In this document: positions 15,738 to 63,231 of the stretch, piece by piece
Numbering within the stretch: position 1 is the first letter of the stretch
Layout of the letters: each line of letters begins with the position of its first letter
Source: a virus
IMG/VR virus record: IMGVR_UViG_3300027763_000040
Location: 34,874-98,873 of that record
DNA length: 64,000 nucleotides
Direction: 5' to 3' (one strand)
Made by a program: the position numbers and the translations under genes
Notes under the pieces: model-generated
The model's input: only the letters and a program-made list of their open reading frames with translations
The model's database searches: none
What the model was told of the DNA's origin: nothing

Positions 15738-15763
15738 AAAAAAAAGGAGGGTGTCAACCCCCC
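15738..15763 (-). terminator. Rho-independent terminator closing the riboswitch peptide unit
   Basis: Minus strand: GGGGGG, short TTGACA loop, CCCTCC (one G-T pair), then eight T. It starts seven bases after the stop of the 37-aa ORF. Confidence 0.85.
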
Positions 15764-15769
15764 AGTATA

Positions 15770-15883
15770 TTATCGCATTGCCATTACAAGTTTTGCTTGA
15801 TGCTTGCGTTGTTCTTTTTCCTTTTGCTGCTTGATTAAAACAAGTTGCCAGTTATTTTTATTTTTCACATTTGCTTGTGACAT
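15770..15883 (-). CDS. Basic 37-aa peptide, second gene of the glutamine-riboswitch unit
   Basis: Read by hand: MSQANVKNKNNWQLVLIKQQ, then KEKEQRKHQAKLVMAMR. Net positive, probably one long helix. A good ribosome site (GGAGAAAACCTA before the ATG) supports translation. It lies 40 bp after the riboswitch-proximal peptide and just before a terminator. Glutamine-synthetase-inactivating factors of cyanobacteria are also small basic peptides, but I see no clear sequence match. Confidence 0.65.
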   Translation of the reverse strand: MSQANVKNKNNWQLVLIKQQKEKEQRKHQAKLVMAMR

Positions 15884-15923
15884 TAGGTTTTCTCCTTAGT
15901 GGTTTAGGTTAAAGAGCGTTCCT

Positions 15924-16076
15924 TCAGTCGGCGGTTGCGTCTATTTTACACTCTTTGGGAGTAATTTTTTTGATTTCCCAAATTAAATCGTTGCGAGTTT
16001 GTGGAGGCATATTTGCCTTCATAACTCTTCCAATGATTAACTTTGCTTGTAGACAACTAAGTAAGAGTGCTTCCAT
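15924..16076 (-). CDS. 50-aa peptide directly downstream of a glutamine riboswitch
   Basis: MEALLLSCLQAKLIIGRVMK, then ANMPPQTRNDLIWEIKKITPKECKIDATAD. The ATG at 16076 is chosen; a longer reading that starts at a TTG at 16166 translates the promoter and aptamer and is rejected. The helix-helix pattern with Cys residues near both ends is typical of small cyanobacterial/cyanophage peptides found next to 'downstream peptide' RNAs. A role in nitrogen signalling is inferred from the aptamer only. Confidence 0.7.
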   Translation of the reverse strand: MEALLLSCLQAKLIIGRVMKANMPPQTRNDLIWEIKKITPKECKIDATAD

Positions 16077-16085
16077 AGATGAACG

Positions 16086-16131
16086 ATCCGTTCCGCGTCG
16101 GCTTACTTCCGACCCTTTCGGGTTGAACGTA
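16086..16131 (-). ncRNA. Glutamine riboswitch (glnA / downstream-peptide type aptamer)
   Basis: Minus strand: CGTTC (16129-16125) pairs with GAACG (16093-16089) as P1. ACCC-GAAA-GGGT forms P2. The conserved CGGAAGTAAG and CCGACGCGGAACG follow, matching the known glutamine aptamer core (CGGAAGTAGG ... GAAGGAACG). It lies between a sigma70 promoter and the 50-aa ORF, with the predicted transcription start at its 5' edge. This class is established in marine cyanobacteria and cyanophages and senses L-glutamine. Confidence 0.82.
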
Positions 16132-16136
16132 GAGGT

Positions 16137-16166
16137 ATTATACCCCCATTGCGGGTATTTAGTCAA
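16137..16166 (-). promoter_or_regulatory. sigma70 promoter of the riboswitch unit
   Basis: TTGACT (16166-16161), 18-bp spacer, TATAAT (16142-16137). The expected start is about seven bases downstream, at the first bases of the aptamer. Host-type early promoter. Confidence 0.82.
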
Positions 16167-61843: not shown

Positions 61844-63078
61844 CAAGGTCCAAGGGGAAGTTGTGAGCATTCTTGAAATCCCACTGTCGCCAGGGGCAAG
61901 GACTATATCATCACCATTTCTGGTGTCGGACGCTAATGGTGTATTACATCTCACGCTTGAGAAACCACCTAGTCTCTGAACCTTCCCCAGAAGCGTCTGG
62001 GGCTTGGCTGCTGATTGTCTACGAGAGAGTTCCAGCAATTCATCCGATTTAAAGAGCGCCATGCTTATACAAAACGCTCGTGCATTACTTCCATCCCAAG
62101 TCCACCACGATTAAGAATATCAGCCCAAGTAGGAATTACTTTGTTCTGACTATCAGTAATAGACTGGTTGAAATTAAATCCGTTGAGATTGAAGGCCATC
62201 GTGGAAACACCAAGGGCGGCGAACCAGATGCCTACAACAGGCCAGGCAGCAAGGAAGAAGTGCAACGAACGGGAGTTATTAAAGGACGCATATTGAAAGA
62301 TAAGACGACCAAAATACCCGTGAGCTGCAACTATGTTATAAGTTTCTTCCTCTTGTCCGAACTTATAACCGTAGTTCTGACTTTCGGTTTCAGTAGTTTC
62401 ACGTACCAACGATGAGGTTACAAGAGAACCGTGCATCGCAGAGAACAGTGAACCACCAAAGACACCAGCAACACCCAACATATGGAAGGGGTGCATAAGG
62501 ATGTTATGCTCTGCCTGGAAGACAAGCATATAGTTAAAAGTACCAGAAATGCCCAAAGGCATAGCATCAGAGAAAGAACCTTGTCCGAAAGGATACACAA
62601 GGAATACAGCAGATGCAGCAGCAACAGGTGCTGAGTAAGCAACCATAATCCAAGGACGCATACCTAGACGGTAAGAAAGTTCCCATTCACGTCCCATATA
62701 GGAGTAGATACCAATCAGGAAGTGAAAGACAACAAGTTGGAAAGGTCCACCATTGTACAACCATTCATCTAAGGAAGCAGCTTCCCAGATAGGATAGAAG
62801 TGAAGTCCAATAGCATTAGAAGAAGGAACAACAGCACCAGAGATGATGTTGTTACCGTACATTAATGAACCAGAGACAGGTTCACGAATGCCGTCGATGT
62901 CCACAGGAGGAGCACCGACAAATGCGATGATGAAGCAAATCGTTGCGGCAAGCAACGTTGGAATCATAATGGTTCCAAAATGTCCGACGTATAAACGATT
63001 ATTTGTACTTGTTACCCAACTAAGGTAACGTTCCCAGAGATTGTCGCCAGATTGGCGTGTAGCAATTGTAGCAGTCAT
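61794..63078 (-). CDS. psbA: psbA, photosystem II D1 protein, split by a group I intron (exons 63078-62074 and 61871-61794)
   Basis: Exon 1 (335 codons) starts [35 protein letters not shown] and includes [82 protein letters not shown] and ends [10 protein letters not shown]. Exon 2 (25 codons) reads [20 protein letters not shown] then APSIG-stop. Joined length is 360 aa, exactly that of D1. The join restores [14 protein letters not shown], so Mn4CaO5 ligands His332/Glu333 come from exon 1 and His337/Asp342/Ala344 (standard numbering) from exon 2. Without splicing, translation ends after two extra residues (FV). Phage D1 keeps photosystem II running during infection. Confidence 0.95.
61872..62073 (-). 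other. Group I intron in psbA (202 nt, no ORF)
   Basis: P1 is exact: exon GAGCGT pairs with intron GCGCTC (62059-62054), placing the required U-G wobble at the 5' splice site. The intron ends in G (61872) before AATGCTCAC. P7-like elements GACTA (61970-61975 region) and TAGTC (61901-61905 region) are present. Size is close to the 212-nt psbA intron reported in S-PM2. No maturase ORF inside; the endonuclease is outside. Confidence 0.93.
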
Positions 63079-63231
63079 TTGTTAAAAGGGTAAGTATGAG
63101 TCCAAGGGGAATTGAACAGTTACAGTATTCCTACACCACCCTCCAGTGTAGGTATGAGAGACGTATTTATCGTGCAAAGTCTCGGTAAGCACCTTAGCAA
63201 TGTTAGGATTTCCTGACTTGCTGATGTATTT
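63079..63231 (-). ncRNA. Structured psbA leader (candidate PhotoRC-type element)
   Basis: About 150 nt of leader between the promoters and the ATG. A CCTACAC / GTGTAGG hairpin (63152-63146 with 63136-63130) has a nine-base loop. A second possible stem, GGAAT / ATTCC, follows immediately. PhotoRC RNAs are known in front of psbA in cyanophages, but I cannot confirm the consensus by eye. Confidence 0.45.
63164..63171 (-). promoter_or_regulatory. Late promoter GATAAATA within the psbA leader
   Basis: GATAAATA 85 bp before the psbA ATG. A start here would drop the first part of the leader but keep the hairpin. Confidence 0.5.

Follow-up and report, generated by a model that had tools for sequence, protein, structure and literature searches.

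A probable composite glutamine riboswitch with a small protein gene nested in one arm, in a cyanomyovirus

The locus and its parts

The window studied here, the whole stretch of viral DNA of 64,000 nucleotides, carries on its minus strand (16166-15738) a compact unit made up of a promoter, a glutamine aptamer, two small open reading frames (ORFs), and a terminator. A first-pass annotation had proposed that the phage carries a glutamine-riboswitch unit encoding small proteins. The analysis supports such a unit, in a cyanomyovirus, and a search of the window recovered all the parts that the annotation had listed: a sigma70-type promoter and a terminator (both by consensus scan), an aptamer, a 50-aa ORF, and a 37-aa basic ORF with a good ribosome site. 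The parts, several of which were delimited by the comparisons described below, are as follows (all on the minus strand).

16137..16166, minus: sigma70-type promoter, TTGACT-18-TATAAT (consensus scan)
16166-16161, minus: promoter -35 box, TTGACT
16142-16137, minus: promoter -10 box, TATAAT, separated from the -35 box by an 18-nt spacer
~16131-16129, minus: predicted transcription start
16125..16129, minus: P1 5' strand "a", CGUUC, which in the composite form pairs with d
16112..16123, minus: P2 hairpin, ACCC-GAAA-GGGU
16104..16111, minus: J2/3 core CGGAAGUA, conserved aptamer nucleotides, identical in host aptamers
16096..16103, minus: P3 5' strand AGCCGACG; 16096 is covarying position X
16089..16093, minus: strand "b", GAACG, partner of c (composite isomer) or of a (local isomer, that of Rfam)
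16081..16085, minus: strand "c", CGUUC, the 5' strand of the second half-unit
16075..16079, minus: P2' 5' strand UCUAU, which includes the A and U of the ORF1 start codon
15924..16076, minus: ORF1, 50 aa, nested between the P2' strands, phrog_504-like
15940..15944, minus: P2' 3' strand AUAGA, within the last ORF1 codons
15926..15933, minus: P3 3' strand CGCCGACU; 15933 is covarying position Y and 15926 the U of the ORF1 stop codon
15922..15925, minus: J3/1 core GAAG, outside the Rfam match and overlapping the ORF1 UGA stop
15917..15921, minus: P1 3' strand "d", GAACG
15911..15917, minus: GCUCUUU, a possible partner of the ORF2 ribosome site (predicted by the minimum-energy fold)
15892..15897, minus: ORF2 Shine-Dalgarno sequence AAGGAG, 8 nt upstream of ORF2
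15770..15883, minus: ORF2, 37 aa, basic
15738..15763, minus: intrinsic terminator GGGGGGUUGACACCCUCC plus U8, a hairpin at 15763-15746 followed by the U tract (consensus scan)

The aptamer begins at the predicted transcription start, as had been claimed, and this arrangement is general among relatives: of the 136 distinct upstream regions among the matches listed, 133 have a -10-like box 5-11 nt upstream of the aptamer (at 7 or 8 nt in 103), and 107 have a -35-like box too, compared with a background of 5%.

Extent of the aptamer

Covariance-model searches, which the first-pass annotation had proposed as a check, gave a qualified answer. A cmscan of the whole window listed no glutamine riboswitch at gathering score; in a search of a 561-nt stretch, the glnA model RF01739 matches 16131-16085 with 33.0 bits (E 2.5e-5), just short of its gathering score of 35 bits, and several relatives attain 35-38 bits. 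The other model proposed, RF01704 (type 2), scores only 13.9 bits in the window against a cut-off of 33 bits, which two of the relatives just attain. The RF01739 match is limited to 47 nt and remains sub-threshold because the matched stretch is without the 3' half of the aptamer. The alignment shows a four-position gap exactly at the expected 3' core (consensus CCGAAGGAACGC); the window carries GCCGACUGAAGGAACGC at 15932-15916, spanning the ORF1 stop codon, and the missing 3' half, GACUGAAGGAACG, lies ~200 nt downstream of the matched part, over that same codon. We therefore read the aptamer as spanning 16129-15917, with ORF1 inside one arm, and an arm the size of an ORF is beyond what the RF01739 model can bridge.

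Thus a glutamine aptamer is present as had been claimed, but its extent had been drawn wrongly, with the half containing J3/1 GAAG (15926-15917) left out, and the linear order of aptamer, ORF, and ORF gives way to one in which ORF1 sits within the aptamer. ORF1 as a gene behind a leader was dropped when the 3' half was found at the ORF1 stop codon. The closing helix P1 (CGUUC/GAACG) is present, with pairings a:b and a:d both possible and a:d used in the composite; J2/3 CGGAAGUA at 16111-16104 has the same letters as the host copies; and a P3 that starts directly after GUA, together with a J3/1 GAAG directly before the 3' strand of P1, is obtained only if 15933-15917 is counted in as the 3' half.

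Host aptamers provide the reference for this order of parts. RF01739 matches occur in 54 of the 151 genomes of the family of a Prochlorococcus single-cell genome (G001), and the 19 host aptamers that were extracted run CGUUG-A-P2-CGGAAGUA-P3-GAAG-CAACG, with P3 starting right after GUA and ending right before GAAG; the phage composite keeps the same order. A covariance model built from 14 host sequences only finds four of 18 ORF-less phage loci, with up to 31.2 bits, and parses all four as a composite of 97-102 nt with a 50-nt insert in P3. In the window, the host model returns only a local 47-nt 5' part (11.1 bits) because ~200 nt separate the halves.

We consider it likely that the unit is a composite type 1 (glnA) glutamine riboswitch, in which two tandem aptamers are fused and ORF1 is nested in P2'. 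Half-unit 1 would give the 5' strand of P1, P2, and the CGGAAGUA core, and half-unit 2, ~200 nt downstream, would give the GAAG core and the 3' strand of P1; P3 would link the halves and bear the inner hairpin b:c and the extra arm P2'. ORF1 would form the loop of P2', with the start codon placed in the 5' strand of the arm and the stop codon within the core of the aptamer.

Related loci and the contents of the arms

In BLASTN comparisons with phages, DSL-LC02, DSL-LC03, and S-SRM01 are conserved over the aptamer, all of ORF1, and on to where ORF2 starts. The S-CREM1 match is split into two segments that leave out ORF1, and the S-CREM1 record has one 99-nt glnA riboswitch annotated at that place, to which the accompanying paper assigns a 99-nt span and 44.0 bits (PMC9964418). 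Homologues of ORF1 occur in 26 IMG/VR contigs, each with the same aptamer before ORF1, and GACUGAAGGAACG follows ORF1 in each of these contigs that extends far enough. The ORF1 slot is filled by a different-looking ORF in the isolates P-SSM2, P-SSM7, S-SSM7, and P-RSM6 and in three phage records from single cells, and by a short hairpin in P-TIM68, Bellamy, S-PM2, and AG-345-P14; phages with and without ORF1 thus have common framing sequence, and what varies is P2', a short hairpin in some and a loop carrying an ORF in others.

After an IMG/VR pattern scan, the elements number at least 160 in total and at least 140 distinct. Our tally of arms covers 137 distinct elements among the matches listed: 75 have a hairpin in P2 and ORF1 in P2', 25 have hairpins in both arms, 22 have ORFs in both, and 5 have an ORF in P2 only, the rest being incomplete at a contig end or otherwise unclassified. 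The first-pass annotation had tied both ORFs to the aptamer. This stands for the downstream small ORF, which is nearly always kept, but ORF1 is missing from 30 of these 137 listed elements (the 25 with two short arms and the 5 with an ORF in P2 and a short P2') and is therefore optional cargo.

Arm slots that hold different ORF families (phrog_504, phrog_6471, and phrog_13397) and that can be empty would also suit an exchange cassette, in which the CGUUC/GAACG inverted repeats aid the swapping of small ORFs and the RNA fold now has no regulatory role. A recombination site, however, requires sequence identity and not the compensatory pairing described below; moreover, the core nucleotides are those of the host glutamine aptamer, promoter spacing is fixed, and genes like the downstream one are what glutamine riboswitches control in hosts. 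We consider an exchange cassette very improbable.

The second nested family, in P2, which we call ORF0, comprises phrog_6471 and a MTKALLLLAW.. family (L038, L040, L055, L062, L070, L079, L081, L086, L114, L142, and others). ORF0 lies directly behind the promoter without a ribosome site, and promoter spacing would put the 5' leader at about a dozen nucleotides before its start codon. By eye, the N-termini of several proteins encoded by ORF0 and ORF1 look like signal peptides. At a few loci (L098 and L003) ORF1 runs past the core stop and ends downstream of strand d. In two phages the composite is followed, after a few hundred bases, by a manA RNA scoring 185-188 bits (L037, 1958-2143, and L038, 1909-2106).

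Pairing and covariation

The two strands of P2' face each other across an entire gene, and 98% of their pairs are standard (n = 78 distinct end pairs, among the matches listed). In this same set, covariation is 0.441, compared with 0.017-0.174 in slid registers. The mean number of consecutive pairs is 5.92 versus 4.52 after shuffling (maximum of 2000 shuffles, 4.96). The stem has compensatory changes, and in one locus, L155, it is exchanged entirely (GATTATGG/CCATAATC). P2 behaves in the same way across ORF0, with 5.26 consecutive pairs versus 3.91 shuffled (maximum 4.87; n = 23, among the matches listed) and stem exchanges of the kinds UCCUAU/AUAGGA, UCUCAU/AUGAGA, UCUUAU/AUAAGA, and UCCAAU/AUUGGA.

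These pairings bear on another account, that only the 5' unit at 16131-16085 functions, as a plain leader of ORF1, with the downstream GAACG and the P2' pairing as relics. Neither Rfam nor the host model picks up any other part of the aptamer in the window, but the sequence of the 3' half is almost unchanged across at least 140 loci and P2' still pairs across diverged ORFs, so that we regard the account as very improbable.

The halves themselves are joined by P3, where position X (in GAC-X-CGG) and position Y (in GCAAA-Y-G) form a Watson-Crick pair in 67 of 67 cases among the matches listed (T-A in 45, G-C in 13, and A-T in 9). X:Y has the highest mutual information among the pairs tested, and the best of 20,000 shuffles reached 0.69. 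In a second sequence class P3 is AGUCG/CGACU and fully paired, and the P3 of the window has two mismatches (C-A and A-C). Mapped on the ORF1 tree, changes at X number five or more, as do those at Y; a relatedness-controlled test of X:Y yielded three supported independent pairs, all concordant and too few for significance.

Covariation at X:Y argues against an ordinary tandem of glnA RNAs, in which a:b and c:d close separate aptamers, ORF1 lies in P2' of the second, and the outcome is a steeper response to glutamine. In favor of such a tandem, glnA RNAs in tandem have been described (PMC2864571), each half-unit in relatives obtains an Rfam score of its own (31-38 bits), and both isomers are similar in folding energy. 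Against this, half-unit 1 is without J3/1 GAAG and half-unit 2 without J2/3 GUA, the missing parts being complementary; X:Y covaries across the units; and the host model prefers the composite. We consider two separate aptamers unlikely. P1 strands are invariant, so a:d and a:b are not told apart by covariation, and folding energies, which lie within a few kcal/mol, do not pick an isomer. Start codons and ribosome sites show no difference in ensemble accessibility, which thus predicts no switching direction.

The nested protein

Compared with the window copy, ORF1 homologues give dN/dS values of 0.11-0.36; across 277 pairs the median is 0.29. These values place ORF1 under purifying selection. 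In 112 of 118 loci among the matches listed, ORF1 ends at the UGA/UAA of the core. In a 30-row alignment C8, C43, A47, and D50 are invariant, and the constant C-terminus (..DAxxD) is the region that encodes the RNA core. AlphaFold models the protein as a two-helix hairpin (pLDDT 84.9); a structure search with this model gave no PDB match with E <1, and in a viral structure library the model matches cyanophage proteins only. The window's ORF1 is a weak match to phrog_504 (E 0.0031), which marine homologues match with E down to 1.3e-26. Pfam and NCBIfam returned nothing usable for ORF1 or ORF2, and a search of 201 host-family genomes, run without a positive control, found no host copy of ORF1.

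The downstream gene

The second peptide, which had been taken for an undescribed one, is instead a derived form. Among the matches listed, 114 of the 125 distinct downstream ORFs of relatives have YRG motifs of the DUF4278 type; a typical one matches DUF4278 (PF14105) with E 4.8e-5 and 24.1 bits, just under the cut-off of 25.3, and window ORF2 has no Pfam match to that family. ORF2 consists of the start of the relatives' YRG ORF (MSQ..) fused to the small basic ORF that comes next, an arrangement of the fusion subgroup (the window, L010, and L011) as compared with L018, L026, and L027. By this comparison, the window's subgroup has lost the YRG ORF, and ORF2 is a remnant form of it. ORF2 had no tblastn match in phages and none in 101 host-family genomes, the latter in a search without a positive control. 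Host small ORFs behind glnA aptamers, at L217 and L218 (MSIITVHYLQRHREETARRAKEMAYRRHVD..), show a pattern like that of the phage ORF2 basic module (NWQLVLIKQQKEKEQRKHQAKLVMAMR), which we note as a lead only. Cyanobacterial glutamine aptamers mainly go with DUF4278 proteins, and in the riboswitches of both types that have been tested glutamine turns expression on (PMC6316151).

Distribution

The exact pattern turned up 54 times across 84,980 prokaryote genomes, in most cases by chance; five of the matches have an adjacent c element (L170, L201, L204, L210, and L213). The bins of these five are labeled Dehalococcoidia, Nonlabens, Euryarchaeota, and Prochlorococcus. L213, from a Prochlorococcus single-cell genome, is on a contig with phage genes as judged by eye, and L170, L201, L204, and L210 are probably mis-binned phage contigs. 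No other copy of the composite was found in 400 genomes of that Prochlorococcus family. As far as the exact pattern shows, the composite is thus phage-specific.

Proposed mechanism and relation to known systems

Architecture, promoter geometry, pairing across ORF1, and purifying selection are all seen in the sequence comparisons. The mode of action proposed for the likely composite is as follows. Glutamine would stabilize the whole fold, and P2' would then bury the ORF1 start, so that ORF1 output would be low at high glutamine; by analogy with host riboswitches, the closed composite would favor the downstream small ORF. A ribosome on ORF1 would part the halves and, once it reached the stop codon, sit over strand d of P1, and translation of ORF1 and ligand binding would therefore exclude each other. 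Reading of ORF1 and folding of the switch probably hinder each other. More broadly, we offer as a possibility, at somewhat less than even chances, that the peripheral arms are slots for up to two small genes in a fused pair of which each half is incomplete: with glutamine bound, the nested genes, whose starts lie in folded arms, would be shut and the downstream gene of YRG/DUF4278 type would be on, and when nested genes are translated the ribosomes would keep the sensor open, giving opposite outputs.

Protein genes in peripheral loops of structured RNAs are familiar from group I introns, which are in that respect like the ORF1 arrangement; a group I intron, however, is a ribozyme with a homing endonuclease and not a ligand sensor, and the phage unit contains no mobility gene.

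glnA aptamers in T4-like cyanophages have already been published (PMC9602691, PMC9964418), and the presence of a riboswitch is therefore not new in itself. With the type 1 (RF01739) riboswitches of cyanobacteria the phage form has in common P1, P2, the CGGAAGUA and GAAG core, and the position of P3 between GUA and GAAG; it differs in being a composite of two tandem units, in the inner hairpin and extra arm of P3, in arms that contain protein genes, and in its absence from the host genomes searched. The S-CREM1 riboswitch (OP535465) has the same 99-nt composite span and the same place before a YRG-type ORF, but its P2' is a short hairpin without a nested ORF, and the accessible part of the paper contains no remark on a two-unit nature (PMC9964418). 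The type 2 riboswitch, or Downstream-peptide motif (RF01704), is also a glutamine aptamer by ORFs of 17-100 aa in marine picocyanobacteria, but with the ORF placed after the aptamer, unlike the nested ORF1. Methylophage Melnitz and pelagiphages likewise have a glnA-type aptamer in a marine myophage, which is tied to a tmRNA gene and for which nested ORFs are not reported (PMC9004378). Searches of the open-access literature turned up no account of a riboswitch aptamer that contains protein genes, nor of two tandem glutamine aptamers fused into one.

If the composite reading is correct, the fold with which a metabolite aptamer binds its ligand can itself house a protein gene, and the ways in which riboswitches can link translation with sensing would have to be seen differently. 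Searches for riboswitches would have to change, as present models miss or truncate such copies. Well over 100 natural variants with zero, one, or two nested genes would be at hand in phages infecting Prochlorococcus and Synechococcus, phage gene control would be tied to the host nitrogen-status signal, and phrog_504 and phrog_6471, unexplained small phage proteins, would become cargo of a glutamine switch.

Other structured RNAs in the window

Elsewhere in the window, also on the minus strand, Rfam places a group I intron at 61880-62123 (72.7 bits) and a PhotoRC-II RNA at 63117-63205 (64.8 bits), the latter being a known leader of cyanophage psbA-type genes.
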